Assembly (NCBI RefSeq): GCF_029854215.1
Contig: NZ_CP122961.1
Location: forward strand, 620,001 to 684,000
Direction: 5' to 3'
Origin: Halomonas alkaliantarctica
GTDB lineage: Bacteria; Pseudomonadota; Gammaproteobacteria; Pseudomonadales; Halomonadaceae
DNA length: 64,000 nt
The position numbers and the translations under genes are program-made. The stretch's first letter is position 1. Each line of letters opens with the position of its first letter. Shown here one piece after another: positions 43,610-61,836 of the stretch. A model generated the notes under the pieces. The model was not told the origin of the DNA. It did no database searches and was given only the letters and a program-made list of their open reading frames with translations.

Positions 43610-44377
43610 ATGGCCCTTTTTGAGCTACATAGCCGCAACTTAGCCCAAGAGCAGGTGGCCCATACCCACGACTTCCATCAGCTTATTCTGGCCACTTGTG
43701 GTGTTACGGAGCTTTCGATGGAGGGCCAGGGGGAAAGGGTGACCGCCCGCCGAGGGTGCTTGATCCCTTCGTCGCGCCATCACGAGTACCAGGGTGATGG
43801 CAACAACCGTACCTTAGTGCTGGATATACCCGTTGCCCAGTTGGCATCGCTTGAAAAGGGCAGTGAGATTGAGCGACTCTTTGATAAGCCGCGCTTTTTC
43901 AGCGTGCCTCCCGCGTTAAACCAGCTTACCCACGCCCTGGCGAATCAGCTTGAGCAGTGCCCCGCGCTGCAGAATGAAATCGCGATTCTGCTGTTACGCG
44001 CGTTGACCATGTATCTGCATGATGCCACTCCCTCCACAGTTGGACAGTTGGGCCAACACTGCATCAGCGAGCGCCTTGATCTTGCCCGTTTGGATGCCTG
44101 GTTGGATCAGCATCTAGCCGATGAGATTCGTGTGGAGCAGTTAGCTGCTTTGTGTGCCTTAAGCCCAGGGCACTTTCACTCCTGCTTTCGTGAGCTGACT
44201 GGCGTAACGCCGCTGGCCTATGTGCAGCGCAGGCGCTTAGAACACGCTCGCACCTTGGTTCGCCACAGCACGCTTAGCCTGGGGCACATCGCTATGCTGG
44301 TCGGCTTTCGCGATCAAGGCAGCTTTTCCCGCGCCTATCGGCGATATTTCGAGATTGCTCCTTCTTCAGACCGTTAG
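43610..44377 (+). CDS. AraC-family transcriptional regulator
   Basis: 255 residues. An N-terminal cupin-like sensing domain (about 1-90; HTHDFHQLILATCGV, RRGCLIPSSRHHEYQGDG) and a C-terminal pair of helix-turn-helix motifs (about 158-250; VEQLAALCALSPGHFHSCFRELTG and LGHIAMLVGFRDQGSFSRAYRRYF). It directly precedes and faces the same way as the RidA-TRAP-deacetylase operon, so it is the likely regulator. The 3' end of the gene, including its stop codon, lies in the first unit of a 20-bp tandem repeat. A perfect AGTGCT/AGCACT inverted repeat at 43571-43587 is upstream and could be an autoregulatory site. Confidence 0.9.
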   Translation: MALFELHSRNLAQEQVAHTHDFHQLILATCGVTELSMEGQGERVTARRGCLIPSSRHHEYQGDGNNRTLVLDIPVAQLASLEKGSEIERLFDKPRFFSVPPALNQLTHALANQLEQCPALQNEIAILLLRALTMYLHDATPSTVGQLGQHCISERLDLARLDAWLDQHLADEIRVEQLAALCALSPGHFHSCFRELTGVTPLAYVQRRRLEHARTLVRHSTLSLGHIAMLVGFRDQGSFSRAYRRYFEIAPSSDR

Positions 44378-44440
44378 GCCCTTCTGCAGATCGTTAGACC
44401 CTCATCTGACCGCTAGCCCCTCGCCGAACCGTTAGTGCTA
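44361..44440. repeat. Four 20-bp tandem repeats at end of AraC gene
   Basis: Units at 44361-44380, 44381-44400, 44401-44420 and 44421-44440 carry variants of CTTCTGCAGACCGTTAGACC. The AraC-type stop codon (TAG, 44375-44377) is in the first unit, and a TAG recurs in each later one. Divergence increases with distance. Confidence 0.8.
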
Positions 44441-44460
44441 AAATTTTCTTGCCTGCATGA

Positions 44461-44492
44461 CTTGCGGGCAAATCTACCTCAGCTTCGGGCAA
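44461..44492 (+). promoter_or_regulatory. Candidate AraC-type operator (direct repeat)
   Basis: CTTGCGGGCAA (44461-44471) and CTTCGGGCAA (44483-44492) are direct repeats 22 bp apart, about two helical turns, the layout bound by AraC-family activators. The second abuts the predicted -35 of the RidA operon. A further partial copy, CTTGCCTGCA, begins at 44449. Confidence 0.5.
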
Positions 44493-44496
44493 GTAA

Positions 44497-44524
44497 TTTG
44501 TCGGCGAGCGCACTAGTCTCTAAT
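44497..44524 (+). promoter_or_regulatory. Predicted promoter of RidA-TRAP-deacetylase operon
   Basis: TTTGTC (44497-44502) and TCTAAT (44519-44524; 5 of 6) are 16 bases apart. The weak -35 next to the direct repeat fits activator-dependent transcription. Confidence 0.45.
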
Positions 44525-44566
44525 GATCCCTTTTAAATCAACACAACCCCTTTCAAGGAAAACACC

Positions 44567-44923
44567 ATGGGCGTTACCTACCAAGACAGCAATGCACGTA
44601 TGAGCCAAGTGGCGATTCACAACGGTACCGTTTATCTCGCAGGTCAGGTTCCCCCTGATGCCACGGCGGATATGCGTGGCCAAACCGAGCAGGTGCTGGC
44701 GCGTATCGATCAGTTGCTGGCCCAAGCGGGCACCTCGAAAGAACACCTGATCTCAGCACAAATCTGGGTCACCAGCATGGCGGAGTTCGACCAAATGAAC
44801 GCCGCTTGGGACGCCTGGGTCGTGCCCGGTCGCCCGCCGGTGCGTGCAGCGCTTGAAGCCCAGCTCGCCAAGCCCGAGTGGAAAGTTGAGATTATGGTGG
44901 TAGCCGCGCTGCCGGAGGCCTGA
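44567..44923 (+). CDS. RidA/YjgF-family enamine/imine deaminase
   Basis: 118 residues. MSQVAIHNGTVYLAGQVP, then QTEQVLARIDQLLAQAG and a C-terminal RPPVRAALEAQLAKPEWKVEIMVVAA. The last block holds the Arg that binds the carboxylate of 2-aminoacrylate-type imines in RidA proteins. Typical family members hydrolyse reactive imines released by PLP enzymes or amino acid oxidases. AAGGA precedes the ATG. First gene of the operon; only one base separates its stop codon from the next start, so the two act together. Confidence 0.9.
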   Translation: MGVTYQDSNARMSQVAIHNGTVYLAGQVPPDATADMRGQTEQVLARIDQLLAQAGTSKEHLISAQIWVTSMAEFDQMNAAWDAWVVPGRPPVRAALEAQLAKPEWKVEIMVVAALPEA

Positions 44924-44924
44924 T

Positions 44925-45866
44925 ATGCGGGTTGTTTCTGCCGAAGAGGTCACGCGCCACTTGACGTGGGATGGCTTGATCAAGCGGCTACATACAACAT
45001 TCGTGAACGGCGTGGAGTCACCTCCGCGCCATCACCACGCGATGCACCGGCCAGATGGCGAAGCCACCATGCTGCTAATGCCCGCCTGGGAAGCGGCGGG
45101 CTATATCGGCGTCAAAATGGTCAATGTGTTTCCGCAAAACGCCGACCATGGTATTCCGGCGATCTCTGGGCTTTATTTGCTCAGCGAGGGCAAACACGGC
45201 CAGCCGCTGGCCTGCATCGATGGCAGCGAGCTAACCCGACGTCGCACGGCGGCGGCCTCTGCGCTGGCCGCTCAAGCCTTGGCGAATGAAAACGCAGAGA
45301 CGCTGCTGGTGGTGGGCACGGGCAAGTTGGCGCCCATGGTGATCGAGGCTCACGCCAGCGTGCGTCCCATCAAACGTGTGCTGATCTGGGGCCGCAATCC
45401 CAGTAAAGCGGCAGCGATTGCCGAGGAGTATGCCGAACGCTTTGAGACCCACGTGGTGGAAGAACTCGCAGAAGCGGTAGCCGAGGCAGACATCATCAGC
45501 TGCGTAACGCTCTCCAACCAGCCGCTGATCAAAGGTGAGTGGCTGACGCCTGGCACCCACTTGGATCTGATCGGCGCGTTTCGCCCCCAAATGCGCGAAA
45601 CCGATGCGCTGTGTCTGCGCCGCTCAGAGGTGTTTGTGGATACCTACGCCGGTGCCAAAGGCGAAGCGGGCGACATTCTGCAAGCCATTGAAGAGGGCGA
45701 GTTCCAGTTCGACCAGATTCAAGCGGAGCTTGCTGAAGTGCTGACCGGGGTTAAGCCGGGGCGTTCTGCACCGGAGGCCATCACGCTATTCAAATCGGTA
45801 GGTGCTTCGCTGGAAGATTTAGCCGCTGCGATAGAAGTGTGGGAGTCGCTGCCCGAACAGTCATAA
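44925..45866 (+). CDS. Ornithine cyclodeaminase / pyrroline-2-carboxylate reductase family
   Basis: 313 residues. OCD/mu-crystallin family: substrate domain with GYIGVKMVNVFPQN and ELTRRRTAAASALAAQAL, and a Rossmann NAD(P)-binding domain starting LLVVGTGKLAPMVIEAH (about residue 125). Members either convert ornithine to proline or reduce cyclic imines such as delta-1-pyrroline-2-carboxylate and delta-1-piperideine-2-carboxylate. Presence with RidA and an aminotransferase favours the imine-reductase function (inference). Confidence 0.88.
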   Translation: MRVVSAEEVTRHLTWDGLIKRLHTTFVNGVESPPRHHHAMHRPDGEATMLLMPAWEAAGYIGVKMVNVFPQNADHGIPAISGLYLLSEGKHGQPLACIDGSELTRRRTAAASALAAQALANENAETLLVVGTGKLAPMVIEAHASVRPIKRVLIWGRNPSKAAAIAEEYAERFETHVVEELAEAVAEADIISCVTLSNQPLIKGEWLTPGTHLDLIGAFRPQMRETDALCLRRSEVFVDTYAGAKGEAGDILQAIEEGEFQFDQIQAELAEVLTGVKPGRSAPEAITLFKSVGASLEDLAAAIEVWESLPEQS

Positions 45867-45956
45867 CGATTGCCATAACAACAACACCATCGATACCCGG
45901 TGGGTAGCCACGTCACTCATAACGAAGACCGACCAATAATCAAAACGAGGTGTGTT

Positions 45957-47030
45957 ATGAACGCTAAAAAATCAGTATTTTTCGCCGCCTTGGCTGCACT
46001 TCCGCTAGCCATTGCCAGCGCCAATGCCCAGGCGCAATCCTATGAAATGGTGATTGCCACGCAGTTGCCCGAGGATATGAGTAATAACGAGATCTATCCG
46101 GCGCTGGTGCACTTTAAAAACTTGGTAGAGGCGCGCACCGACGGGGATCTTGAGGTCACCATCTTCGGCGGCGGCCAGCTAGGTTCCGAGGTGGAGAACG
46201 GCTCGGAAGTGCAGGGCGGGCGTACGCTACAGTCAACGATTATGTCCGCGGGGGCGATGTCCTCCTTCTACGAAGACTACCAAGTCGTCACGGCACCGTT
46301 CCTGTTCACCAACTGGCGGCAGGCGTGGAGCTTCTTTGACAGTGAATGGTTCGCGGATTTCATGTCCGGCACCATCGAAGACGCCGATTTGCGTTACTTG
46401 GGCACCTTCGATGATGGCGGCGGTTTTGTCGCCTTCACCAATAACGTGCGTCTAATAAAGACCGTCGAAGATTTAGAAGGTCTTAATATTCGCACCGAAG
46501 AGAACCCTGCCCACGTGGCGATCATGCAATCGTTAGGTGCTTCGGCCACCCCGCTGCCCTGGGGCGAGCTAATCACTGCGCTGGAAACCGGTCTTGCCGA
46601 TGGGCAGTTCAATGCGCCGGTGCTCAATACCACCTTCAACTTCGATGCGGTCACCGACTACACCACGCTCACCGGGCATGTGTATAACAGCGCCCCCTGG
46701 GTGGTCAGCGAGTCGTGGTACCAGTCGCTGCCCGAAGAGCATCAGCAGGCGGTGATTAGCTCCGCCCGGGAGGCGATTCAACTGAGCCACGGTATGTCGG
46801 GCGCCCTGGCTACCGCGAGTTGGGTGGAGTCCTGTGAACGCTTCGAAGAGTGCTACCTGATGCCCGACGCCGAGCGTGAGCGGATGGCGGAAATTGCCCG
46901 GCCCGCTTGGCAAGAGTGGATCGTCGATGACTTCGGCATGGACGAAGCCCGCGTACAAGGGCTGCTTGATGAAGTCGAGCGTGTCGGCCAGCAGTTGGCA
47001 GAAGACGACTACCGCATCTATGGCCAATAA
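45957..47030 (+). CDS. TRAP transporter substrate-binding protein (DctP family)
   Basis: 357 residues from the ATG at 45957, with ACGAGG six bases upstream. A signal peptide ends near ANAQA. The DctP signature is present: GLNIRTEENPAHVAIMQSLGAS with the Arg that salt-bridges substrate carboxylate, then PLPWGELITALETGLADGQFNAP. This predicts an organic or amino acid substrate with a carboxylate. A strong hairpin follows the gene, as is common where the binding protein is made in excess over the membrane subunits. Confidence 0.93.
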   Translation: MNAKKSVFFAALAALPLAIASANAQAQSYEMVIATQLPEDMSNNEIYPALVHFKNLVEARTDGDLEVTIFGGGQLGSEVENGSEVQGGRTLQSTIMSAGAMSSFYEDYQVVTAPFLFTNWRQAWSFFDSEWFADFMSGTIEDADLRYLGTFDDGGGFVAFTNNVRLIKTVEDLEGLNIRTEENPAHVAIMQSLGASATPLPWGELITALETGLADGQFNAPVLNTTFNFDAVTDYTTLTGHVYNSAPWVVSESWYQSLPEEHQQAVISSAREAIQLSHGMSGALATASWVESCERFEECYLMPDAERERMAEIARPAWQEWIVDDFGMDEARVQGLLDEVERVGQQLAEDDYRIYGQ

Positions 47031-47090
47031 ATGCAGGGCTAATAAAGCCTGGGTCAAAAAACAAGGCCAATAACGATTAGCGAACGATAA

Positions 47091-47118
47091 ACGCTGGGGC
47101 GATGTGAGGCCCCAGCGT
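47091..47118 (+). promoter_or_regulatory. Hairpin between dctP- and dctQ-like genes
   Basis: ACGCTGGGGC and GCCCCAGCGT form a perfect 10-bp stem with an 8-base loop, immediately before the dctQ-like ribosome-binding site (GAGG from 47119). No T-run follows. Likely 3' stabiliser of the binding-protein mRNA or partial attenuator. Confidence 0.6.
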
Positions 47119-47129
47119 GAGGAAAAACC

Positions 47130-47675
47130 ATGGGCGTTCTAACTCCTTTGCGCCGCGTGAGCGACCTCGTCAATCAGGTGGCTATCGTGGTGTGTGTGAG
47201 CTGTATTCTGGCGATGCTGGGCATCTCGTTCACGGCGTTTCTCTATAAGCTGATCACCGGCAGCACGCTGAGCTGGACCTACTCGCTGGCGCGGCTGTTT
47301 CTGCCCTGGATCGGCTTTCTCTCCATGACGATTTCGCTGCGCTATGGCGAACACGTCGCCATGACCCTGCTGGTTCGCAGCTTGCCCCGCGTGATGGTGC
47401 AAGTGGCTGCCGGGCTGTGTTTGGCGGTGATTGGCCTGTTTGCACTAATGCTAACTTGGTATGGCTGGGGCTATTTCACCAGCGCCACTCAGGTCTATAT
47501 GGTTTCCGCCCAAATCCAAATCCCTAGTAAGTTCACCGCCATTGTCATACCCATTAGCGGTGTGATTATGCTGCTGCATCTGGTGCATGGCTTCGCCCTA
47601 CTGGAGCACTTCATCGATGAGCAGGACGTGATTGGTGAACTCATCGACACCACTGACGGGGAGCGCCGCTCATGA
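47130..47675 (+). CDS. TRAP transporter small membrane subunit (DctQ family)
   Basis: 181 residues with four predicted transmembrane helices (about 16-38, 53-70, 91-113 and 134-156). LARLFLPWIGFLSMTISLRYGEHVAM is typical of DctQ. It pairs with the large subunit next door, whose start overlaps its stop by 4 bp. Confidence 0.9.
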   Translation: MGVLTPLRRVSDLVNQVAIVVCVSCILAMLGISFTAFLYKLITGSTLSWTYSLARLFLPWIGFLSMTISLRYGEHVAMTLLVRSLPRVMVQVAAGLCLAVIGLFALMLTWYGWGYFTSATQVYMVSAQIQIPSKFTAIVIPISGVIMLLHLVHGFALLEHFIDEQDVIGELIDTTDGERRS

Positions 47676-48946
47676 TCCCTGCAATTATTGCGTTTGTCTT
47701 GCTGCTGTTTATCGGCGCGCCGGTAGCCGTGGTGATGGCCATGTCGGGGCTAGCGGGTGGCTTTGCCATGGGCGGCGAGCGCATGCTCGGCATCATTGCC
47801 GACCGAATGTTCTCCGGCGTCTCCGGCTTTCTGCTGATTGCCGTGCCCTACTTTATTTTTACCGCTGAACTGATGAACCAGGGCGGGCTGACCCATAAAT
47901 TGATCGCCTTCAACAATGCGCTGTTCGGCCGGGTGCGCGGGTCACTCTCCCACGTGAATATCTCGGTCTCGGTGTTCTTTGCGGGTCTCACCGGCGCGGC
48001 GGTCACCGATACCGTCGCCATCGGCAAGATCATGATCCCCGAGATGAAAAAGCAGGGCTACGATGCCGAATACGCCGCGGCGGTTACCGCCTGCTCCTCT
48101 ATCATCGGGCCGATTATTCCCCCCAGCGTGGTGATGGTGGTCTACGCCACGCTGCTGCGGGATATCTCGGTGATTGACCTGTTTGCCGGTGGCATTATCC
48201 CCGGCCTATTGATGGCGCTGGCGCTGCTGGGCGTCAGCTTCTTCCTGGCCTGGAAGCGCAACTACCCGAAACAGGCGCCGACGCCGTTTAAGATGGCCGT
48301 GATGTCGTTTGTGCTGGCGCTACCCGCCATGGTGGTGCCGCTGATTATTCTCGGCGGCATTCTCTCGGGGCTCACCACGATTACCGAAGCCTCGGGCTTT
48401 GCGGCAGTTTACGCCATTGTGATTGGCGTGGTGTTCTACCGTAATCTTACCTGGCGCAAAATTTGGGATTCGCTGGTGACCACGGTGCGCTTTTCCGGCG
48501 TGGTGTTTTTCCTGCTGGCCACCTCGGCGGTATTGGGCTGGTTCGTTACCCGTTCGGGCATCGCCAGGGATGCAGCCAGCATGATCACCACCTTCAGCGA
48601 TGTGGCCTTTTTGCAGTTGATGCTGGTGTGTTTGCTACTCTTGATGATCGGTACTGTCATGGATGTGCTGCCTGCTTTGGTGGTCATTGCGCCCGTGCTG
48701 GTACCGGCGATGATTCAGCTGGGTTTTGACCCGCTTCACTTCGCGATCCTGATGATCGTGGTGCTCAATATCTCCAACGTGACGCCGCCAGTGGGGATGA
48801 CGCTGATGACCGCCGCACGAATAGCCGACGTGCCGTACGAACGGGCGATTGTGGCCTCGCTGCCGTTTTACGTATCATTTCTGGTAGTAATTGTGTTGCT
48901 GGCGGCGTTTCCAGCGCTCTCCACCTGGATTCCTTCTTTACTTTAA
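47672..48946 (+). CDS. TRAP transporter large membrane subunit (DctM family)
   Basis: 424 residues with about twelve transmembrane helices. Family motifs include GAAVTDTVAIGKIMIPEMKKQGYDAEYAAAVT-like segment near residue 108, SSIIGPIIPPSVVMVVY and NISNVTPPVGMTLM. It carries out Na+-coupled transport of the substrate captured by the DctP-type protein. Confidence 0.93.
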   Translation: MIPAIIAFVLLLFIGAPVAVVMAMSGLAGGFAMGGERMLGIIADRMFSGVSGFLLIAVPYFIFTAELMNQGGLTHKLIAFNNALFGRVRGSLSHVNISVSVFFAGLTGAAVTDTVAIGKIMIPEMKKQGYDAEYAAAVTACSSIIGPIIPPSVVMVVYATLLRDISVIDLFAGGIIPGLLMALALLGVSFFLAWKRNYPKQAPTPFKMAVMSFVLALPAMVVPLIILGGILSGLTTITEASGFAAVYAIVIGVVFYRNLTWRKIWDSLVTTVRFSGVVFFLLATSAVLGWFVTRSGIARDAASMITTFSDVAFLQLMLVCLLLLMIGTVMDVLPALVVIAPVLVPAMIQLGFDPLHFAILMIVVLNISNVTPPVGMTLMTAARIADVPYERAIVASLPFYVSFLVVIVLLAAFPALSTWIPSLL

Positions 48947-48974: not shown

Positions 48975-50006
48975 ATGAAATGCTTTTACCACCCCGATCA
49001 GGCCTACCACGCGCCGCCGACGTTTTTGCTGCGCGGTCAACCCGTGCCCTCACCGGAAGGCCCGGTGCGCGCCGAGCTGCTGACCCAAGGCTTGGCAAGC
49101 GCGGGCCTGACCCTGACGGCACCTAAAGAGGCGGATTCGCCAACGCTGCGTAAGCGTTTAGAGCAGATCCATACGCCGCGCTACCTGACGTTTCTCGACA
49201 CCATTTACGCCCGTTGGCAGGCGCTACCCAATGCGGCCGAATTTGTTGCACCCAATATTCACCCCTGCGGCGGTGGTTACCACTACCCGCGCCACCCGAT
49301 TGGGCAGGCGGGCTGGCATCTGCACGATATGGCCTGCCCGCTGAGTGCTACCAGCTTTCAAGGCGCGTTGGCCTCGGCAGCTAGCGCGGAAGCGGCGGCT
49401 GAAGAGGTGCTTGATGGCGCGCCTACGGCCTACGCGCTGTGCCGCCCGCCGGGTCATCATGCTGGGCCGGAGCGCGCCGGGGGCTTTTGCCTGCTGAACA
49501 ATTCAGCGCTGGCCGCCACGGTGCTGCGCGAACGCTTCGCTAAAGTAGCGATCATCGATGTGGATCTGCACCACGGCAACGGCACCCAGGATATTTTTTA
49601 TCACCGCAGCGATGTCTGGACGGGGTCGCTGCACGCTGACCCTAGTGATTTCTATCCGTTTTTTTGGGGCGGCGCTGATGAAGAGGGCGACGAAGAAGGC
49701 GTAGGTGCTAACGTTAATTTGCCCTTGCCGGTAGGTAGCGACGGCGAGGTCTATCTGGACGCTCTGGCAGTGTTAATTGATCACCTGCAGCGCTACGAGC
49801 CCGATGCCGTGGTGGTGGCGCTAGGCTTGGATGCCCACAAAGATGACCCGCTCGCGGGGCTCAAGGTGGAAACCGAAGCGTTTATCGAGGTGGGCAAACG
49901 CCTGGCGGCGCTTTCGCTACCCATGGTGATTGTTCAGGAAGGTGGCTACCCCACTGAGCACTTAAGCGCCAACCTGACCGCCTTTATGCAGGGCTTTACG
50001 GCATGA
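48975..50006 (+). CDS. Histone-deacetylase-like amidohydrolase 1
   Basis: 343 residues from the ATG at 48975, 28 bp after the TRAP gene; the open frame reaches back into that gene. HDAC fold with all catalytic parts: RPPGHHAGP (His-His), IIDVDLHHGNGTQDIF (zinc Asp and His), GLDAHKDDP (zinc Asp) and VQEGGY (Tyr). Length and GTQDIFYHR resemble bacterial acetylpolyamine amidohydrolases. It probably removes acyl groups from a small amine rather than from proteins, given the transporter beside it (inference). Its stop overlaps the next deacetylase gene by 4 bp. Confidence 0.88.
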   Translation: MKCFYHPDQAYHAPPTFLLRGQPVPSPEGPVRAELLTQGLASAGLTLTAPKEADSPTLRKRLEQIHTPRYLTFLDTIYARWQALPNAAEFVAPNIHPCGGGYHYPRHPIGQAGWHLHDMACPLSATSFQGALASAASAEAAAEEVLDGAPTAYALCRPPGHHAGPERAGGFCLLNNSALAATVLRERFAKVAIIDVDLHHGNGTQDIFYHRSDVWTGSLHADPSDFYPFFWGGADEEGDEEGVGANVNLPLPVGSDGEVYLDALAVLIDHLQRYEPDAVVVALGLDAHKDDPLAGLKVETEAFIEVGKRLAALSLPMVIVQEGGYPTEHLSANLTAFMQGFTA

Positions 50007-51109
50007 GCAGAACCGGTTTCTACTGGCACGAACGCTGCTTTTGGCACGATCAAGGCGCGATTGGGGTATTCTCCGCGCCGGGCGAATTCCTGCAGCCCCA
50101 GGCCGCTTCGGAAAGCCCGGAGAGTAAACGGCGGCTGAAAAATATTCTCGAAGTTAGTGGGCTGATTGACGAGCTTCATGTGGTGAAACCATCCGCCGCG
50201 TCGCTCGATGATCTGCTGTGTTTTCACACCCCGCGCTATTTAGACGAACTGCAGGCGGGGGATCAAGCCCGCGGCGGCAATGGAGGCGACTGCGCCCCCT
50301 ACATGCCCGGCAGTTGGGCGGCGGCCACGCAATCCGCCGGTTTAGCTATTGCCGCCGTGGAAGCCGTAGCGTTGGGCGAAGTGGGCAACGCCTACGCCCT
50401 ATGCCGCCCGCCCGGGCATCATGCCGAAGCCGATCAAGGCCGTGGGTTCTGTCTGCTGGGCAATATCCCCGTGGCGGTGATGCGCGCCCGGGCCTTGGGG
50501 CAGGTTAGCCGCGTAGCGATACTTGATTGGGATGTTCACCACGGCAACGGTCAGCAGGCGGCGTTTGATAACGAGCCTGAAGTCTTTACGGTTTCTATCC
50601 ATCAGGCGGCCAACTACCCGCTGGAAACCGGCAGCTTTGACGAGCAGGGCGAAGGCGCAGGCCTGGGTGCCAATCTCAACCTGCCGCTACCGCCAGGCTG
50701 CGGCCTGGGCGCCTACGCGTATGCCATGGAAAAACTGGTGTTGCCCGCACTGGAAGCCTTTAACCCCGAGCTCATCGTGGTGGCTTGCGGTTACGACGCC
50801 TGCGCCAAAGATCCCTTAGGCAAGATGTTGCTCAACAGCCAGGCCTTCGCCACCATGACCGCCCAGCTAAAAACGCTGGCCGAGCGCTGCTGCGATGGCA
50901 AGCTGGTGTTTGTACACGAAGGCGGTTATTCAGAGGGCTACGTGCCGCTCTGCGGTCACGCAGTGATCCAGACTTTGGCAGATAGTCAGATTGTCGTGCC
51001 TGACCCGCAAAACGATGAAATTGCCGCTTGGGGCTATCAGGCCCTGCAACCGCACCAGCAGTCATTGATAGACGACTGGTGCCAACAGTGGGAGCAACGC
51101 AAACAATGA
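50003..51109 (+). CDS. Histone-deacetylase-like amidohydrolase 2
   Basis: 368 residues. HDAC fold of the class II-like bacterial group (HDAH type): SPESKRRLKNILEVSGLID near the start, RPPGHHAEAD, ILDWDVHHGNGQQ, CGYDACAKDPLG and VHEGGY. The Zn ligands, His pair and Tyr are intact. It is clearly a different subfamily from the enzymes at 48975 and 60799, with longer ends and different loops. Overlaps of 4 bp with both neighbouring genes show it belongs to the operon. Confidence 0.88.
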   Translation: MSRTGFYWHERCFWHDQGAIGVFSAPGEFLQPQAASESPESKRRLKNILEVSGLIDELHVVKPSAASLDDLLCFHTPRYLDELQAGDQARGGNGGDCAPYMPGSWAAATQSAGLAIAAVEAVALGEVGNAYALCRPPGHHAEADQGRGFCLLGNIPVAVMRARALGQVSRVAILDWDVHHGNGQQAAFDNEPEVFTVSIHQAANYPLETGSFDEQGEGAGLGANLNLPLPPGCGLGAYAYAMEKLVLPALEAFNPELIVVACGYDACAKDPLGKMLLNSQAFATMTAQLKTLAERCCDGKLVFVHEGGYSEGYVPLCGHAVIQTLADSQIVVPDPQNDEIAAWGYQALQPHQQSLIDDWCQQWEQRKQ

Positions 51110-52059
51110 CACCGCTTTATGACCGCGATGGCTGGATTTGGCACGACGGTGAATGGCTGGAGTGGCGCGAGGCCAAGGTGCATGTCTTCACCCATACGCT
51201 TCACTATGGCATGGGCTGTTTTGAGGGCGTGCGCGCTTATGCAGGCCCCAGCGGCACGCATCTATTCCGTACTGCCGAGCACACCCGCCGCTTGGCAGAA
51301 AGTGCTCACTCGCTGGATATGCCGCTGCCGTTTAGTGAAGCGGAGCTGATCGATGCCCAGCGCGAGTGCTTGACCAAAAACAACCTGAGCAATGCCTACC
51401 TGAAACCTACCGTGTTTTTTGGGGCAGAAGGTTTAGGGCTACGCGCCCAGGGGCTGACTACCCATGTGATGGTCGCTGCCTGGGATTTAGGTCCCTACAT
51501 TTCCCCCCAGGCCGCGACCCATGGCTTGCGCGCACTGACCTCTTCCTGGGCGCGCCACCACGTCAATATCAGCCTGTGTCGGGCAAAAACCAACGGCCAC
51601 TACGTCAACTCGATATTGGCACTGAATACAGCGATCAAGGCCGGGTTTGATGAAACCATCATGCTCGACCCGGAAGGCTATGTAGCCGAGGCCTCCGCGG
51701 CGAACGTCTTCTTGCTGCGCGATGGCGTGCTGCATACCCCGGAAGTGACGTCGTGTTTGCAAGGCATCACCCGGGATAGCGTGATTCAGCTGGCGCAAAA
51801 GGTGCTGGGTATTGAAGTGCGGGAGCGGCGTATTACCCGCGACGAGCTCTACACCGCCGACGAGGCATTTTTAACCGGCACCGCCGCCGAAATACTCCCG
51901 CTTCGCGAGCTGGATGGCCGTCGTATTGGCGGTCGCGCGGGCGCACCGCCCGTTAACGAACCCATCAGCCCCGACAGCGTCACTGCTCAACTGCAGGGCT
52001 TATATCGTCAGGCGGTGCGCGGTGAGCTAGATGATTTTAGGCATTGGTTAACGCCTTAG
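51106..52059 (+). CDS. Class IV (branched-chain-type) aminotransferase
   Basis: 317 residues from the ATG at 51106 that overlaps the preceding stop by 4 bp. PLP fold type IV: HTLHYGMGCFEGVRAY, CRAKTNGHYVNSILALN with the PLP Lys, and AEASAANVFLL. It resembles IlvE, but as the last gene of a catabolic operon with deacetylases, a special amino acid substrate is more likely than housekeeping leucine/valine synthesis (inference). It is followed by the structured repeat at 52090. Confidence 0.87.
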   Translation: MTPLYDRDGWIWHDGEWLEWREAKVHVFTHTLHYGMGCFEGVRAYAGPSGTHLFRTAEHTRRLAESAHSLDMPLPFSEAELIDAQRECLTKNNLSNAYLKPTVFFGAEGLGLRAQGLTTHVMVAAWDLGPYISPQAATHGLRALTSSWARHHVNISLCRAKTNGHYVNSILALNTAIKAGFDETIMLDPEGYVAEASAANVFLLRDGVLHTPEVTSCLQGITRDSVIQLAQKVLGIEVRERRITRDELYTADEAFLTGTAAEILPLRELDGRRIGGRAGAPPVNEPISPDSVTAQLQGLYRQAVRGELDDFRHWLTP

Positions 52060-54798: not shown

Positions 54799-56439
54799 TC
54801 ACGCTGTCGCTGCCACGGGCGCTTCGCGGCCGGGAATCGCCTTGAGCAGGTCCTGGGTATACGTCTCTTTTGGAGCGAGGAAAATTTGCTCGGCGCTGCC
54901 TTGTTCGACAATGCGGCCATGCTGCATCACCACGATGCGGTCACAAATATGCGCGGCGACACGCAGGTCGTGGGTGATGAACAGCAGCGAAAGCGACAGC
55001 CGCTGTTTTAGCTCCTCCAGTAGTTCCAGTACCTGGGCCTGAATCGACACATCCAACGCTGAAACAGCTTCATCTGCAACGATCAGCTCGGGGTTGAGCG
55101 CCAGCGCCCGGGCAATGCCGATACGCTGACGCTGGCCGCCGGAAAATTCGTGGGGGAAACGCTCCACGGCGCTGGCGCCCAAGCCCACCATATCCAGCAG
55201 CTCACCTGCCTGTTTAAGCGCCGCTGCTTTGGGCGTGCCGTTGGCAATTGGCCCCTGGGCTATCGCCATGCCCACTTTGGTGCGTGGGTTGAGCGAGGCG
55301 TAAGGGTCCTGGAATATCATCTGCACCCGGTGGCGTTCCCGGCGTAGCGCATCGCCTTTTAGCTGGGAAAGATTCACCCCATCCAGCAGCAGCTCGCCGC
55401 TGTCCGGGTGCTCCAAGCGCACCACGCAGCGTCCGAGGGTGGACTTGCCCGAGCCGGATTCGCCTACGATGCCCACGGTTTCTCCACGCGCCAGGGTGAG
55501 CGAAACATCGTTAAGCGCATGCACTTCGCGAGCAGGTTTGAGCCAGCCGCCCCGAGAGCGAAAGACCTTATTGAGCTGCTTGATTTCCAACAGCGGGGCG
55601 ACTTGGCTGGTCTCCCTGTGGGGCGGCACCGCATTACTGGGAATCGCGGCAATCAGCGCTTGGGTATAGGCGTCTTGCGGGTTCTCAAGCACCGGCTTGG
55701 CGTCACCCAGCTCGACGATCTTGCCGTGGCGCATGACGCAGACGCGGGTGGCAATTTCGGCTACCACGCCAAAGTCGTGGGTGATAAACATCACCGACAT
55801 GCCGCGCCGCTGCTGAAGGTCCCGAATAAGCTCCAGAATCTGCGCCTGTGTCGTTACATCCAGCGCCGTAGTGGGCTCGTCGGCAATCAACAAAATGGGC
55901 TCTAACGCTAGCGCCATGGCGATCATGACCCGCTGGCGCTGGCCACCGGAAAGCTCAAACGGATAGGCGCGAATGGCCTTTTCAGGCTGGGGAATGCCCA
56001 CTTCGATCAGCAGTTCCAGGGCGCGGGCCTGGCGCTCTTTGGCGTTGAACTGGCCGTGGGCCTCGAACACCTCGGCAATTTGCGCGCCTACCCGCATCAG
56101 CGGATTGAGGGCGGTCATCGGCTCCTGAAAGATCATGCCAATTTTTAGCCCGCGCAGGGCGCGGTGCTGTTTTTCCGACAGGGCAAGTAGATCCTGCCCT
56201 TCAAAGAGTATCTCGCCATGGGTGGCGTTCACGCCCTTGGGCAGCAGCCCCATCACGGCGTTGGCGGCCATCGATTTGCCGGAACCGGACTCGCCCACCA
56301 CGCACATGATCTCCCCGCGCTTAACCTCGTAGCTAACGTCCTCCACCGCCAGGGCGCGATCCGCCCCTTTAGGAAGCGCAATGTTCAGGTCGCGAATGCT
56401 GAGGACGGTGTCAGCCGATTGATTCTCTGTAATAGGCAT
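54799..56439 (-). CDS. Dipeptide-type ABC transporter, fused double ATPase
   Basis: 546 residues with two ABC nucleotide-binding domains in one chain. Walker A motifs [12 protein letters not shown] (about 52-63) and [12 protein letters not shown] (about 327-338); signature motifs [13 protein letters not shown] and [16 protein letters not shown]-terminal oligopeptide-transporter extensions after each. Equivalent to DppD plus DppF fused, as in GsiA or YejF. It energises the two permeases encoded just upstream. Confidence 0.93.
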
Positions 56440-56448: not shown

Positions 56449-57282
56449 TTAGCGCTCACGGGATAGTTTGGGGTTCAAGGCATCGTCTAGCCCTTCACCC
56501 ACCAGGTTTAACGCCAGTACGGTGAGCAGAATCGCCACGCCAGGGAAGAAGCTTAGCCACCACGCCTGGCGAATCACCGTGCGCGCTGCGCCGATCATAT
56601 AGCCCCAGGACATCACGTTAGGATCGCCCAAACCCAGAAACGACAGCGCCGATTCCAGCAAAATCGCGGTGGCGACCATCAGCGAGGCCAGTACGATAAT
56701 CGGCGACAGCGTATTGGGCAGAATCTGACGCAGAATGATCGTGGTGTTGGACTGGCCGACCAGACGCGCCGCTTCCACATATTCACGGTTGCGCAGCGAC
56801 ATAAATTCGGCGCGCACTAAACGGGCTACCGGCGGCCAACTGACAATCGCAATCGCCAGTACAATCGAAGTGATACTGGGCTGCATAATCGCCACCAGCA
56901 CGATCGCCAGGGCAAAATTGGGGATGGTCTGGAAGAACTCGGTAAAGCGCATCAGTACGTCATCAATGATGCCGCCGTAGTAGCCTGCAATCGCCCCCAA
57001 GGGAACGCCAATCAGCAGGGCCACGCTGGTGGAGACCAGCCCGATCAACAGCGATACCCAGGCGCCGTGCATCAAGCCGGATGCCACGTTGCGGCCCATG
57101 GTGTCGGTGCCCAGGGGGAAGCCATCCTGGGAGAGCGGTGGCAAAAACGGCCGCTGAACCATGCGCCAGGGCGACTCAGGAAATAGCAGTGGGGCCAGTA
57201 TCGCCATGGCGATAATCACCAGCAGGATGATCAGGCCGACGAGGGCACCACGGTTTTGCGCGAAGCGTGCGAAAAAGCTCAT
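56449..57282 (-). CDS. Dipeptide-type ABC transporter permease (DppC class)
   Basis: 277 residues with about six transmembrane helices. FPLGTDTMGRNVASGLMHGAWVSL at about residues 54-77 and the later EYVEAARLVGQSNTTIILRQILPN (EAA loop contacting the ATPase) are typical. It overlaps the DppB-class gene by 4 bp and leads into the ATPase gene 9 bp later. Confidence 0.92.
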   Translation of the reverse strand: MSFFARFAQNRGALVGLIILLVIIAMAILAPLLFPESPWRMVQRPFLPPLSQDGFPLGTDTMGRNVASGLMHGAWVSLLIGLVSTSVALLIGVPLGAIAGYYGGIIDDVLMRFTEFFQTIPNFALAIVLVAIMQPSITSIVLAIAIVSWPPVARLVRAEFMSLRNREYVEAARLVGQSNTTIILRQILPNTLSPIIVLASLMVATAILLESALSFLGLGDPNVMSWGYMIGAARTVIRQAWWLSFFPGVAILLTVLALNLVGEGLDDALNPKLSRER

Positions 57283-58265
57283 GCGGCCCCCTTCTTGATA
57301 CGTGGATCAGCCAGACTGTAGACCAAATCGGTGATGATGTTGAAGACAATCACCAAGGCCGCCGAGAAGAAGAAAATACCCAGCAGCAGGTTGTAGTCAC
57401 GTTGCTCAAGGGCTTCAAACATCAAGCGGCCGATGCCCGGCCAGGCAAACACGGTTTCGGTCAGAATGGCCCCGCCGACCATCTGCCCCGCTTGCAGACC
57501 TGCCAGGGTAATAATTGGCAGTAGCGCGTTACGCAGCACATGACGACGCTGGATAATGCTGGGCTTCAAGCCTTTGGCGCGGGCGGTTTTGACGTAATCC
57601 TGCTGGGCGGCATCCAGCATTGAAGTACGCGTCATACGGGTGTAAATCGCCATAAAGAACAGCGCCAGCGTGGTTGCCGGGAGCACCAGGTGTTGGGCAA
57701 CATCGAGCATCAGCGCAAACCCGGTGTGATCGGCCCCGACGGTATAAAGCCCGTAGGCGGGCAGCCAGCCCAGGTAGACCGAGAACACCACCACCGACAT
57801 CAGCGCCACCCAGAACAGCGGGGTAGCGTAGAACACCAGTGCCAGCGCCATAATGATTGAGCCGGAAGGTTTTTTAACCCGGGCTGCGGCCATGGAACCC
57901 GCCACGATGCCCAGTACCAGCGAAAGCACAAAAGCGGTGCCGGTGAGCAGTAGAGTGGCTGGCAAGCGATCCATGATCAGATCAAACACTGGGACGCCCA
58001 GCCGGTAGGAGTAGCCAAAATCGAGCATGGCAATACCCGATACATAGCGCCACAGCTGCACGTACATTGGCTGATCAAGGCCGAATCGCTCGCGCAACTG
58101 GTTGAGGAACTCCTGATCGGCAGCGCCCGCTTGCCCAGCCAAAATAGCCGCCGGGTCGCCGGGGGCCATTTGAATCAGAAGAAAATTGAAAATAACGATC
58201 AAAAACAGAACGATAACGGCTTTAAAAAGCCGCATGGCAATTAACCGAGCGTAAACCATAGACAC
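57279..58265 (-). CDS. Dipeptide-type ABC transporter permease (DppB class)
   Basis: 328 residues. N-terminal helix (LFKAVIVLFLIVIFNFLLIQMAPGDP), DQEFLNQLRERFGLDQP, and EAA loop QQDYVKTARAKGLKPSIIQRRHVLRNAL are standard DppB features; about six transmembrane helices. It lies 57 bp after the binding-protein gene, with a strong hairpin in the gap. Confidence 0.92.
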   Translation of the reverse strand: MSMVYARLIAMRLFKAVIVLFLIVIFNFLLIQMAPGDPAAILAGQAGAADQEFLNQLRERFGLDQPMYVQLWRYVSGIAMLDFGYSYRLGVPVFDLIMDRLPATLLLTGTAFVLSLVLGIVAGSMAAARVKKPSGSIIMALALVFYATPLFWVALMSVVVFSVYLGWLPAYGLYTVGADHTGFALMLDVAQHLVLPATTLALFFMAIYTRMTRTSMLDAAQQDYVKTARAKGLKPSIIQRRHVLRNALLPIITLAGLQAGQMVGGAILTETVFAWPGIGRLMFEALEQRDYNLLLGIFFFSAALVIVFNIITDLVYSLADPRIKKGAA

Positions 58266-58322: not shown

Positions 58323-59879
58323 CTAGCGGTCTAGCCAGGCATCTTTAAAGCCGTCGTTAACCCCTACGCCGGAGGTGACTAGGTTTTGCACATCGCAGCG
58401 GTAGAGCGTCGGGAAGCCCAGCTCCATCAGCCAGCCAACGGGCACGTCTTCGTGCAGGATTTCCTGCACTTCACCATAGAGTTTTTCGCGCTCTGCATCG
58501 GGGAATGCCGTGGCGGCTTCGTTAAACAGCTCGTCGACACGCTCGTTTTCGTAGCCTTCCACGTTATTCCAGGGCGAGCCCTTGGCAATATTGTCGGAAA
58601 GGTAGGTGCGTGAAATACCCAGCGCCGGGTCGCCGTACTGGTAAAGGTAAGTAAAGGCGAGGTCGTAATCCCAATCGCCCAGGCGCTGGTTCCAGCCGCC
58701 CACGTCGGTGGCCTGGGTTTCTACGTTAATGCCCACTTCGCGCAGGTTTTGCTGCACGGCTTCGGCCCAGCGCGTCCAGGTTTCCCCATAGGGCAGCGGC
58801 AGAATGGTGATCTCTTCACCGTCGTAGCCCATTTCATCCAGCAACTCGCGGGCGCGGTCTGGATTGTAATCGTAGGGCTCCAGATCATCGTTCTGGAAAC
58901 GCGCATTGGAGCCAAAGGCGGAGAGCGGGACATTGCCCAGGCCGTTCCAGAGTACATTTTTGGCGAACTCGCGGTCCATGGCGTACATCACCGCCTGACG
59001 GAAACGTTTATCCGCCGTGGGGCCTTCGCGGTTGTTCATCCACAGCATGGCGAAGGGGCTGAAGTACTCATGGCCCTCTTCAGTCATACAAACGTTATCC
59101 ATCTCGGCCAGGCGGGGAATATCGAAGTTTTCGACGGTACCGCTGGGCAATACATCAATGGTGCCGTTCTCGAACGCCACTGCGCGGGAGGCACCGTCGG
59201 GGATGACGTGCCAGTTAACACCGTCCAGATAGGGCAGGCCGTCTTCGTAGTACTCCTCGTTCTTGACCAGCTCGATGACGGTGCCGCGTTCCCAGTTGTC
59301 GAACTTGAACGGGCCGGTGCCAATAGGGTGGTCGTTGTGCTCGTTATTGCGGAAATCGGTACCCGCATACAGGTGCTCAGGCACCATGGTGAAGGTGCCC
59401 GCTTCAAAGGAGAGCAGGAAAGGACCGAAGGGCTGCTTCAGGGTAAACACCACAGTATGGTCATCGGTGGCTTCGATACTTTCCACGTGCTGCAGCACCG
59501 CCCGGGCGCTGGGGTTCAACTCGCGGTGGAACACATCGGCGGAGAACACCACATCGTCGGCGGTAAAGGGCTCGCCATCGTGCCAGGTAACGCCTTCACG
59601 CAGATGGAAGGTGTAGGTACGGCCATCGTCACTAACGTCCCACGACTCTGCAAGTTGTGGCATGGGTTCAAGGTCGGTGGTATAGCGCAACAGGCCTTCG
59701 TAAATATTGCCCGCTACAGTGCGGGTGGGTGCGTTCTGAACCATGCCCAGCACCAGGCCGGGCGGTTCCGGCTGGATAATGGTGTTAACCACTCCACCCT
59801 CTTTGGGGTCATCGGCCAGGGCGGCGGAGGTAAAAGCGAGTGCTGCAGCGGAAATAGCCAACGCTAAAGGTTTCTTCAT
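58323..59879 (-). CDS. ABC transporter substrate-binding protein, family 5
   Basis: 518 residues. A signal peptide (about 1-22, ending SAALA) precedes a peptide/nickel/opine-type binding domain: EGLLRYTTDLEPMPQLAESWDVSDDGRTYTF-like block near residue 64, VTWHDGEPFTADDVVFS, and FRQAVMYAMDR. The substrate may be a peptide, opine or amine; the sequence does not decide. First gene of the minus-strand module 2, divergent from the GntR-type gene and expected to be under its control. Confidence 0.92.
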   Translation of the reverse strand: MKKPLALAISAAALAFTSAALADDPKEGGVVNTIIQPEPPGLVLGMVQNAPTRTVAGNIYEGLLRYTTDLEPMPQLAESWDVSDDGRTYTFHLREGVTWHDGEPFTADDVVFSADVFHRELNPSARAVLQHVESIEATDDHTVVFTLKQPFGPFLLSFEAGTFTMVPEHLYAGTDFRNNEHNDHPIGTGPFKFDNWERGTVIELVKNEEYYEDGLPYLDGVNWHVIPDGASRAVAFENGTIDVLPSGTVENFDIPRLAEMDNVCMTEEGHEYFSPFAMLWMNNREGPTADKRFRQAVMYAMDREFAKNVLWNGLGNVPLSAFGSNARFQNDDLEPYDYNPDRARELLDEMGYDGEEITILPLPYGETWTRWAEAVQQNLREVGINVETQATDVGGWNQRLGDWDYDLAFTYLYQYGDPALGISRTYLSDNIAKGSPWNNVEGYENERVDELFNEAATAFPDAEREKLYGEVQEILHEDVPVGWLMELGFPTLYRCDVQNLVTSGVGVNDGFKDAWLDR

Positions 59880-59986: not shown

Positions 59987-60015
59987 ACCATAGCAGCACA
60001 CGGTAAAACTGTCGA
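59987..60015 (-). promoter_or_regulatory. Promoter of ABC transporter operon
   Basis: On the minus strand TCGACA (-35, 60010-60015; 5 of 6) and TATGGT (-10, 59987-59992; 4 of 6) are 17 bases apart. The -35 lies inside the palindrome ACTGTCGACAGT, so a bound repressor would block it. Confidence 0.55.
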
Positions 60016-60038
60016 CAGTCGGCAATCGTTCGTCGACA
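60008..60038. promoter_or_regulatory. Candidate GntR operator, two TGTCGACA boxes
   Basis: The perfect palindrome ACTGTCGACAGT (60008-60019) and a second box CGTCGACA (60031-60038) have centres exactly 21 bp apart, two helical turns. Each box overlaps the -35 of one of the two divergent promoters. The symmetric arrangement suits the dimeric FCD-type GntR regulator encoded alongside. Confidence 0.6.
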
Positions 60039-60060
60039 AGTGAGTATTTTTGGTCATACT
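60033..60060 (+). promoter_or_regulatory. Promoter of GntR-deacetylase operon
   Basis: TCGACA (60033-60038) and CATACT (60055-60060; 4 of 6) are 16 bases apart on the plus strand, upstream of the regulator gene at 60086. Confidence 0.45.
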
Positions 60061-60085
60061 GGGAAGAACACGTCATACCCCATGA

Positions 60086-60793
60086 GTGAATGCGATGGCC
60101 TTACCAACGGCGGCTCCCAGGGCCTTTATCCAGCAGCAAAATCTCGTTGAGCAAGTGGCTGACTTCTTAACCCAAGCGATTATTCAGCAACACTTTTTAC
60201 CCGGCGAACGGCTTTCTGAAGTGCAGCTCTCCCGCGACTTGGGTGTGAGCCGGGCACCGGTTCGCGAGGCCGCTCGTTTGTTGGAAAGCCGCGGTTTATT
60301 GATCTCAAAACCGCGCCGGGGCTTCTTTGTAAGAGCGTTGAATGCCGTTGAACTCGAAGACGTATTTGATTTGCGGCTGTGCCTGGAACGTCACGCGATT
60401 CAGCGCCTGGCCGAGCGCTATACGCCCGATGCCCAGCGCGCGCTCAAGCAGCAGGTAGAGGTGCTATGTGAGGCGGCAGCCAGTAACGATGGCACCCGTC
60501 GCATTGAAGAAGATCTGCAGTTTCACCGCCTCATGCTGCATTACGCGGGTAACGAGCGGCTGTTGCGTGCCTTTGACGACCTGACCCATGAGCTGCGCCT
60601 GTGCATCACCCTCATTACCAAAACCCACGAAGCCCCCGATACCATCGCCACCAGCCACTTTAAGCTGCTTGACGCGCTGGATAGTGGTAGCCCTGACGCT
60701 TGCCGTGAGGCGATTGACTACCACATAGGCGTAGCCCGCAAATTCGTGGTGAAGGGTGTAGGCGAAACCGGAGATGGTTCTGATGAAGGATAG
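60086..60793 (+). CDS. GntR-family regulator, FCD type
   Basis: 235 residues from a GTG at 60086; an ATG three codons later is an alternative and neither has a clear ribosome-binding site. Winged-helix N-terminus (about 20-85; LPGERLSEVQLSRDLGVSRAPVREAARLL-type block followed by GLLISKPRRGFFVRAL) and an all-helical FCD ligand domain with the metal-binding pattern (DVFDLRLCLERHA, EEDLQFHRLMLHYAGNERL, HFKLLDALDSG, H). Such regulators usually repress catabolic genes until a small organic acid binds. It is co-oriented with the deacetylase gene 5 bp downstream and divergent from the ABC operon. Confidence 0.9.
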   Translation: MNAMALPTAAPRAFIQQQNLVEQVADFLTQAIIQQHFLPGERLSEVQLSRDLGVSRAPVREAARLLESRGLLISKPRRGFFVRALNAVELEDVFDLRLCLERHAIQRLAERYTPDAQRALKQQVEVLCEAAASNDGTRRIEEDLQFHRLMLHYAGNERLLRAFDDLTHELRLCITLITKTHEAPDTIATSHFKLLDALDSGSPDACREAIDYHIGVARKFVVKGVGETGDGSDEG

Positions 60794-60798
60794 TTCTG

Positions 60799-61836
60799 AT
60801 GAATAGAGTACCGATGAAGACGTTCTTCCACGCTGACCAACTGCTTCATCAGCCGCAAACCTACTTCTCACGCGGGAAGATGCGCATTCCCCAGGAAGTG
60901 CCTGAGCGCGCCACTCAGCTGCTAGCGGCCGCCAAGCGGCTTGGTTTCGATGTGCAGGCACCCATCGAGTATGGCGTGGCGCCGCTAAGGGCGGTGCATT
61001 CGCTGGCTTATCTGCGCTTTCTGGAAAGTGCCCATCGGCGCTGGCATGCCCTTGGGGAAGATTGGGGGGAAGAGGTTATCTCCAATATCTTCGTACGTTC
61101 GCCCAACGCCCTGCGCGGCATATTGGCGGAAGCCGGGCGCTACCTGGCCGACGGTAGTGCGCCCGTGGGCCAGAATACCTGGCAAGCCGCTTATTGGTCG
61201 GCGCAAAGCGCGGTCGCCGGGGCTGAGGCTCTGTTAGCCGGGGAGCGATTTGCCTATGCATTATCGCGCCCGCCGGGCCATCACGCGGGCATCGACTCCG
61301 CCGGTGGCTTTTGCTTTCTCAATAATGCCGCCATTGCCGCGCAGCACCTCACCTCGCGCTATCCGCGCATCGTGGTGTTAGACCCCGATATGCATCACGG
61401 GCAGGGGATTCAGGAGATTTTCTACCAGCGCGACGACGTGCTGTATATCTCGATCCATGGTGATACCACCAACTTTTACCCGGCGGTAACCGGCTTTGAA
61501 GACGAGCGCGGGCAGGGCGCTGGGCTGGGCTATAACCTCAACCTGCCAATGCCCCACGGCTCAGAAGAAGCGGTGTTCTTTGACCGCATGGAGGAAGCCT
61601 GCCAGGCCATCCGCCTATTCGAGCCGGACGCCATCGTGCTGGCGCTGGGGTTTGATATCTACGAGCGCGATCCCCAGGCCAAAGTGTCTGTCTCCACGCC
61701 AGGATTTGGTGAGCTGGGCCGCCGGGTCGCGGGCCTCAACGTACCCACGCTGGTGGTCCAGGAAGGCGGCTACTACCTGGAAGGGCTGGAGGCCAATGCA
61801 GTGAGTTTCTTTGAGGGGCTGCTAACCAATAGGTAA
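60799..61836 (+). CDS. Histone-deacetylase-like amidohydrolase 3
   Basis: 345 residues; the ATG at 60799 has GAAGGA eight bases upstream. HDAC fold of the acetylpolyamine-amidohydrolase kind: SRPPGHHAGI, VLDPDMHHGQGIQEIF (Zn Asp and His), GFDIYERDP (Zn Asp) and VQEGGYY (Tyr). It is closer in layout to the enzyme at 48975 than to that at 50003, but VLDPDMHHGQG differs from the usual DVDxHHGNG. Directly after the GntR-type gene, so it is part of module 2 and likely hydrolyses the compound imported by the ABC transporter (inference). Confidence 0.88.
   Translation: MNRVPMKTFFHADQLLHQPQTYFSRGKMRIPQEVPERATQLLAAAKRLGFDVQAPIEYGVAPLRAVHSLAYLRFLESAHRRWHALGEDWGEEVISNIFVRSPNALRGILAEAGRYLADGSAPVGQNTWQAAYWSAQSAVAGAEALLAGERFAYALSRPPGHHAGIDSAGGFCFLNNAAIAAQHLTSRYPRIVVLDPDMHHGQGIQEIFYQRDDVLYISIHGDTTNFYPAVTGFEDERGQGAGLGYNLNLPMPHGSEEAVFFDRMEEACQAIRLFEPDAIVLALGFDIYERDPQAKVSVSTPGFGELGRRVAGLNVPTLVVQEGGYYLEGLEANAVSFFEGLLTNR

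Follow-up and report, generated by a model that had tools for sequence, protein, structure and literature searches.

A conserved operon of HDAC-family amidohydrolases, a Rid protein, an imine reductase and an aminotransferase in Halomonas and its putative role in the catabolism of N-acylated diamino acids

The window analysed here is a 64,000-nucleotide stretch (620001-684000) of the single-contig 4.23 Mb chromosome of Halomonas alkaliantarctica (Vreelandella/Halomonas), and it contains an island of two gene modules. Module 1 (43610-52059 of the window, all on the plus strand) encodes an AraC-family regulator, a Rid-family protein (Rid), an OCD/mu-crystallin-family reductase (OCD), a tripartite ATP-independent periplasmic (TRAP) transporter (DctP, DctQ and DctM), two amidohydrolases of the histone deacetylase (HDAC) family (HD1 and HD2) and a class IV aminotransferase (AT4). 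These genes form a strongly conserved unit, which we tentatively read as an operon for the breakdown of a small diamino acid acylated at its omega nitrogen; N-delta-acetyl-ornithine and N-epsilon-acetyl-lysine are the most likely candidates. The adjoining module 2 is a linked but separable second cassette; its minus-strand genes encode an aminotransferase similar to HisC, a GlcD-like FAD dehydrogenase and an ABC importer of the Opp type, and a GntR regulator and a third HDAC-family gene (HD3) are divergent from them. An earlier note, made from the letters of the sequence, had described both modules, and the genes that it named were found again where it had placed them, with the starts of two corrected: HD1 begins at 48975 rather than 48891, most orthologues aligning from about that residue, and AT4 begins at 51106, 4 bases inside the HD2 stop. 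The genes of module 1 are closely packed, with 1 base between Rid and OCD, 28 bases between DctM and HD1, and 4-base overlaps at DctQ/DctM, HD1/HD2 and HD2/AT4.

HD1 was searched over 151 genomes of the family, where 61 genomes held an orthologue (at least 63% identity), and the proteins of the window were compared with the surroundings of all 61 loci (within 9 kb, at least 50% identity). G105 and G143 each hold two HD1 copies, which were counted as one; in some cases the contig ends within the neighbourhood (e.g., L174 and L184), and the 61 genomes are related and hence not independent. OCD was found near HD1 orthologues at 59 of the 61 loci, Rid at 58, AT4 at 54 and HD2 at 53, followed by DctM (45), DctP (44) and AraC (44). 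This clustering is far beyond chance; the earlier note had named a lack of co-occurrence as grounds for refuting its proposal, and the counts show that the genes of module 1 travel together. The most frequent order, at 18 loci, was AraC-DctPQM-HD1-Rid-OCD-HD2-AT4, and the window has the arrangement of its own genus, in which Rid and OCD precede the TRAP genes (10 loci, and variants of it). The module is also present in H. elongata strain 153B (L072). Within this genus, 20 genomes were covered by both the HD1 and the AT4 searches, and 19 of them agree in the presence or absence of the two genes (14 with both and 5 with neither), the last one having HD1 only.

The transporter is the more variable part. 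Six loci outside the genus carry HD1-Rid-OCD-HD2-AT4 with no TRAP match; among three of these that were looked at, a divergent MFS-like gene (100-103 bits, short of its cut-off of 320) is present at two, and the third (L054) has a tungstate-like ABC permease, one of two nearby divergent open reading frames (ORFs) scanned, which is probably unrelated. Furthermore, HD1 and OCD are paired with a Pot-like ABC transporter in Modicisalibacter muralis (listed models below their cut-offs), and an HD1 unit with an amino-acid-type ABC importer was found in Marinobacter sp. F4216. Since the importer is exchangeable while the enzymes persist, it is the enzymes that define the unit. For the transporter of the window, DctP matched NF037995 with 158 bits (cut-off 50), and its closest structure was 4n8g (148 bits), on which a literature search turned up nothing relevant. 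TRAP receptors usually bind carboxylates; a ligand inference from the DctP fold was dropped, as its structure model reached a mean predicted local distance difference test (pLDDT) score of 41.6.

OCD scored 420 bits against NF004793, the model of Delta1-pyrroline-2-carboxylate/Delta1-piperideine-2-carboxylate reductases (PRK06141), thus passing the cut-off of 322, so that a cyclic imine is a good guess for the end of the pathway; with the EutC model TIGR02992 it reached 141 bits of the 472 needed. A hydroxyproline reading was ranked low; the Pfam scan of 18 island proteins gave no match to the proline-racemase fold of trans-3-hydroxyproline dehydratase. Rid belongs to PF01042 and stays below the archetypal RidA model (TIGR00004, 49 bits vs. 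a cut-off of 106). AT4 scored above IlvE models (377 vs. 279 bits for NF005146, and 350 vs. 246 bits). The Arg of the YxRP motif has a functional role in branched-chain aminotransferases, and AT4 carries Lys in its place in 66 of 66 orthologue rows (rows above 60% identity and longer than 280 residues, some genomes entered twice), whereas the type II enzyme of the same genome has Arg. A housekeeping branched-chain role was rejected for AT4, given the type II enzyme elsewhere in the genome and the shared presence of AT4 and HD1 across the genus described above; AT4 is a pathway enzyme. The site of branched-chain transaminases suits neutral side chains, and AT4 should therefore act before deacylation.

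The chromosome contains six Hist_deacetyl genes. The earlier note had grouped three HDAC-like amidohydrolases of the island together, and all three do belong to the HDAC family, but they are not alike: judged by nearest structures, HD2 is of another subfamily than HD1 and HD3. The closest structure of HD1 and HD3 is an acetylpolyamine amidohydrolase (3men, 283 bits for HD1 and 529 bits for HD3), and HD1 has the HDAC fold with its zinc ligands (D/H/D) and catalytic Tyr. HD2 is closest to HdaH, DmhA and PrpH (9glb, 355 bits; four best chains 349-355 bits), aligns nearly full length with HdaH-type structures and keeps the zinc and catalytic residues D177, H179, D265 and Y309, which together place it in the HdaH-type cluster 1b. 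Among the matches listed for HD1, the protein of Halomonas sp. QHL1 is 98% identical, and the nearest named relatives are Halomonas/Vreelandella. Two genomes of another genus have a second HD1 copy upstream of AraC in which zinc ligands are lost (L045:12427-13452 and L046:12289-13314; Asn for Asp285 in both copies, Arg for His199 in one of them), and this copy is possibly, from its sequence, an HDAC paralogue without catalytic activity that has been retained next to an active one.

An additional gene adds to the picture at 12 of the 61 loci, where a D-amino-acid-dehydrogenase-like (DadA-like) gene lies in the module 1 run, between HD2 and AT4 at 10 of them and without HD2 at the other two; three members scanned gave 426-448 bits (cut-off 383). 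In Marinobacter sp. F4216, a class III aminotransferase, a CoA-transferase subunit, the amino-acid-type ABC importer, HD1, Rid, OCD and a DadA-like gene lie on one strand. These DadA-like genes, at the 12 loci and in the one Marinobacter, fit an alpha-oxidation step. Flavin-dependent amino-acid oxidation yields imino acids, the class of compounds hydrolysed by Rid proteins, so that Rid has a place inside the pathway.

From these data, we infer the following scheme for module 1. The TRAP transporter would import an N-omega-acyl diamino acid, derivatives of lysine and of ornithine both being candidate substrates. The alpha-amino group would be lost at a stage when the side chain still carries its acyl group and is neutral, with AT4 transaminating one enantiomer and, in genomes with the DadA-like flavoenzyme, the D form being oxidised and the resulting imino acid hydrolysed by Rid. 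HD1 and/or HD2 would subsequently remove the acyl group, the freed amino-keto acid would close to a cyclic imine, and OCD would reduce the latter to L-proline or L-pipecolate for general catabolism. The omega-acyl group prevents ring closure, and the cyclic imine arises once the five- or six-carbon omega-amino-2-keto acid is freed. The genome contains two long Pro_dh (PutA-like) genes and, elsewhere, an AmaA-like gene, which could take the pathway products onward. This scheme retains from the earlier note the uptake of an N-acyl diamino acid and the reduction of a cyclic imine, in line with the OCD score and the conserved unit, but it reverses two of the steps, transamination probably preceding deacylation. 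The role then given to RidA, the removal of stray imines, is replaced, as Rid more likely hydrolyses the pathway's own imino acid. A wider version, which we regard as doubtful, is a hitherto undescribed stereoconvergent route in which AT4 would take one enantiomer and DadA plus Rid the other, both leading to one acylated keto acid, before HDAC-family deacylation triggers spontaneous ring closure and the L-imino acid is formed by OCD. The acyl group would then protect the intermediate from cyclising too early, and parallel pathways of several kinds (cyclic imine, beta-keto cleavage and 2-hydroxy acid) would each employ an HDAC-family enzyme dedicated to catabolism.

Several observations weigh against this scheme. 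HD1, HD2 and AT4 are each absent from some loci, and G140 retains Rid-OCD-HD2-AT4 without HD1 and the TRAP genes; the DadA-like gene is limited to the 12 loci mentioned. AT4 still scores as a branched-chain enzyme, the AmaA-like gene falls short of the L-pipecolate oxidase model (NF050086, 346 bits, cut-off 600), and the nearest structures of HD2 include pesticide amidases. In the structure model of HD1, residues 94-118, the loop bearing the changed residues discussed below, have a pLDDT below 50, so that the argument from these residues is one of sequence alignment alone. The Pot-like transporter that precedes HD1 and OCD in Modicisalibacter muralis could hint at amines. This last point, together with the nearest structures of HD1 and HD3, leads to acetylpolyamine catabolism, in which the two enzymes would release putrescine, cadaverine or spermidine. 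Against it, HD1 has PLA for the PIS motif of acetylpolyamine amidohydrolases, and Ala120 for Glu117 of MrApaH, which we take to have a role in polyamine recognition. HD1 also has Ile109 (Ile/Val/Ala in orthologues) where MrApaH has Glu106, the acidic polyamine-recognition residue that is His in the active PsApaH according to PMC11532494; because PsApaH is active with His there, the change to Ile weakens but does not exclude polyamine activity. Another gene of the same genome retains PIS and the AAET segment, though no polyamine gene above cut-off was found around it among 8 of 13 ORFs scanned. A pyrroline-2-carboxylate reductase and an alpha-aminotransferase would moreover have no evident role in such a pathway, and the carboxylate preference of TRAP receptors argues the same way; overall, a polyamine pathway seems rather improbable.

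The DadA-like genes and the membership of AT4 in class IV, which includes D-aminotransferases, could also be explained by deracemisation, with acylated D-ornithine or D-lysine being oxidised by DadA, or transaminated by AT4 as a D-aminotransferase, and OCD rebuilding the L-imino acid. The Arg-to-Lys change in AT4 would suit this role, but 49 of the 61 loci have no nearby DadA gene and AT4 is closest to L-branched-chain enzymes, and thus we consider this explanation unlikely. The halophilic host brings to mind ectoine-related solutes such as N-gamma-acetyl-diaminobutyrate, all the more as ectoine clusters likewise contain a TRAP transporter, a deacylase, an aminotransferase and a gene of the OCD family. 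Nevertheless, an ectoine hydrolase gene of the genome (654 bits against a cut-off of 613) is located some 2.5 Mb from the island, OCD is far from the EutC cut-off, and the keto acid of diaminobutyrate would need a strained four-membered imine, which makes the breakdown of these solutes very improbable. HDAC-family enzymes with a substrate range as broad as in propanil or dimethoate hydrolases might instead serve general amide scavenging or detoxification, or protein deacetylation: HD2 resembles DmhA and PrpH, and bacterial deacylases can be promiscuous, as PMC11532494 describes. The compact operon, conserved over a long time and including both an importer and a reductase, speaks against such a general function, to which we give a small chance. 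The catabolism of an N-omega-acyl diamino acid is the reading that we favour for module 1, tentative as it is.

Module 2 appears beside module 1 in more than one form. In the genus of the window, the FAD gene and the ABC genes adjoin module 1 at 11 of 17 loci and the HisC gene at 14 of 17; across the family, HisC is near HD1 at 17 of the 61 loci, including three outside the genus (L048, L160 and L161) without the ABC cassette. In a second genus, a family 5 binding protein, a GntR regulator and an M20-type deacylase lie upstream of module 1 at 5 of 5 loci, the deacylase being 39-43% identical to that of L088, and at the one locus that was extended (L201) HisC, FAD and the other ABC genes are also present, with the M20-type gene in the place of HD3. 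These two different placements beside module 1 argue for a functional link. The two-module pairing proposed earlier is thus real, but it was found in two genera only and the modules are separable cassettes. Among 13 HD3 loci in other genera, hand-picked from the HD1 search of the family genomes, six have HD3 in one block with an Opp-type ABC transporter, a 2-hydroxy-acid dehydrogenase of the NAD type and a gene resembling class II aldolases. At a seventh, the dehydrogenase and the aldolase-like gene are present without the ABC transporter, and the remaining six have none of these. The nearest structures of the GlcD-like flavoprotein are 3pm9 and the D-2-hydroxyglutarate dehydrogenase 6lpn, and across genera this flavin enzyme alternates with the NAD enzyme for 2-hydroxy acids in the cassette. 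This weakly suggests a D-2-hydroxy acid as an intermediate in the breakdown of the N-acyl compound of module 2; the module would be a second cassette for uptake and deacylation, and the compound that it serves probably has a D-2-hydroxy-acid part. The earlier note had pointed out that each module joins import, a zinc amidohydrolase and a PLP aminotransferase; module 1 does look like a catabolic unit, and the compound handled by module 2 is probably a different one.

The features of the island are listed in the table below. Promoter-like (5 vs. 7.9) and terminator-like (22 vs. 19.6) counts in the island were not above those of shuffles. The stem-loop between dctP and dctQ (47091-47118) is strong and perhaps sets the receptor level above that of the permease.

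Features of the two-module island, with positions in the window
Feature	Position	Strand	Basis
AraC-family regulator, module 1	43610..44377	+	Pfam HTH_18/AraC; near 44/61 HD1 orthologues
Rid-family (RidA-like) imine hydrolase	44567..44923	+	PF01042 90.5 bits; 58/61 loci
OCD/mu-crystallin-family reductase, putative Delta1-pyrroline-2-/Delta1-piperideine-2-carboxylate reductase	44925..45866	+	NF004793 420 bits; 59/61 loci
DctP, TRAP solute-binding protein	45900..47030	+	PF03480, NF037995; 44/61 loci
Stem-loop, 10 pairs, dctP-dctQ gap	47091..47118	+	z -3.2
DctQ, TRAP small permease	47130..47675	+	PF04290
DctM, TRAP large permease	47672..48946	+	TIGR00786; 45/61 loci
HD1, HDAC-family amidohydrolase, acetylpolyamine-amidohydrolase-like without polyamine residues	48975..50006	+	
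HD2, HDAC-family amidohydrolase, HdaH/DmhA-like	50003..51109	+	PF00850 282 bits; 9glb/9gkw; 53/61 loci
AT4, class IV (IlvE-like) aminotransferase, YLKP replacing YLRP	51106..52059	+	NF005146 377 bits; 54/61 loci
HisC-like aminotransferase	52215..53339	-	PF00155; near HD1 in 17/61 loci
GlcD-like FAD dehydrogenase, probable D-2-hydroxy-acid oxidation	53372..54763	-	PF01565/PF02913
Fused Opp-type ABC ATPase	54799..56439	-	profile matches
OppC-type permease	56449..57282	-	profile matches
OppB-type permease	57279..58265	-	profile matches
Family 5 solute-binding protein	58323..59879	-	PF00496 314 bits
GntR/FCD regulator, module 2	60086..60793	+	profile matches
HD3, HDAC-family amidohydrolase, module 2	60799..61836	+	PF00850; 3men 529 bits

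Beyond the orthologues, 64 distant homologues (L073-L136; 45-55% identity to HD1) make up the lower part of the best 80 listed, 63 of them outside Halomonadaceae and Marinobacter and one, Halotalea (L127), within Halomonadaceae. Seven loci with less than 3.5 kb upstream were left out of the upstream survey, and among the 57 counted (within 6 kb) a class III aminotransferase was found at 24, a beta-keto acid cleavage enzyme (Kce) at 23 and both at 19, so that small amino-acid chemistry is seen again around distant relatives of HD1, in favour of the catabolic reading. A GNAT gene lies directly upstream at 24 of the 64 loci and a DAO-type flavoenzyme near at 12 of the 64. Of nine annotated plasmid records, two have aminotransferase-Kce-GNAT-HDAC and a third the same without GNAT. 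A Variovorax plasmid combines two HDAC genes with aminotransferases of class IV and class III, and ABC transporters, other hydrolases or unrelated genes are found in the remaining records. This HDAC subfamily thus turns up in several operons for small molecules, often together with transfer or oxidation of an amino group. In a tree of 80 rows (12 of the 61 family loci, 43 of the 64 distant loci with 21 omitted by choice, Marinobacter, and 10 module-2 or HD3 loci), HD1 of Halomonas and Marinobacter formed a single clade (97/97), separate from the HD3 set and from the sequences of rhizobia and roseobacters. Two of the rows are HD2 proteins that were picked up through their position, three proteins appear twice, and the program warned of long branches, which occur in parts of the tree.

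Some of the distant loci deserve mention in their own right. L137, L138 and many of L075-L118 are rhizobial or roseobacterial class III aminotransferase-Kce-GNAT-HDAC operons, which possibly perform protect-cleave-deprotect chemistry on a beta-diamino acid; the best model for the Kce of L088 is 3,5-dioxohexanoate:acetyl-CoA acetone transferase. At L056:11112-19648, the neighbours of an HD1-like gene (49%) are ZnuA, FolE2, an ABC-3 permease and an N-acetylmuramoyl-alanine amidase, a combination that resembles an island for zinc starvation. An ORF of 293 residues at L055:10470-11351, flanked by an HD1-like gene and a class III aminotransferase, has no Pfam or NCBIfam match. The record L087 bears the name Bacillus subtilis SK6B4 but contains an HD1 homologue of proteobacterial type (50%), and it is probably misnamed or contaminated.

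In bacteria, the enzymes of the HDAC family are mainly known for deacylating proteins or polyamines. Acylated amino acids occur as compatible solutes and protein breakdown products, and if the reading given here is true, HDAC-family enzymes would also be carbon- and nitrogen-harvesting enzymes for them, with the subfamily tied to import, transamination, Rid and imine reduction in relatives of Halomonas and to beta-keto acid cleavage in rhizobia and roseobacters. Among the matches listed, keyword literature searches found no published description of the gene set of the modules; the main text of PMC11532494 uses "operon" once and does not contain "gene neighbo", "genomic context" or "aminotransferase". 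The families are known, and it is their combination, strongly conserved, that the searches found nowhere described.

Compared with the acetylpolyamine amidohydrolases of cluster 4 (MrApaH and PsApaH; 3men), HD1 is without Glu106, Glu117 and PIS and sits in an amino-acid operon. HD2 is nearly full-length similar to the HdaH/DmhA/PrpH deacylases of cluster 1b but differs as an operon member beside HD1, Rid, OCD and an aminotransferase. OCD resembles the PRK06141 reductases by its score above the cut-off, whereas no trans-3-hydroxyproline dehydratase match stands beside it among the 18 proteins scanned. The ectoine clusters (UehABC/EutABCDE) are alike in their TRAP transporter, OCD-family gene, deacylase and aminotransferase, but their deacylase has a different fold and an ectoine hydrolase gene of this genome lies elsewhere. 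The rhizobial and roseobacterial operons share a homologous HDAC-family enzyme, an aminotransferase and often an importer with module 1, and differ in the chemistry that their genes point to, beta-keto acid cleavage there and cyclic imine reduction in the Halomonas unit.

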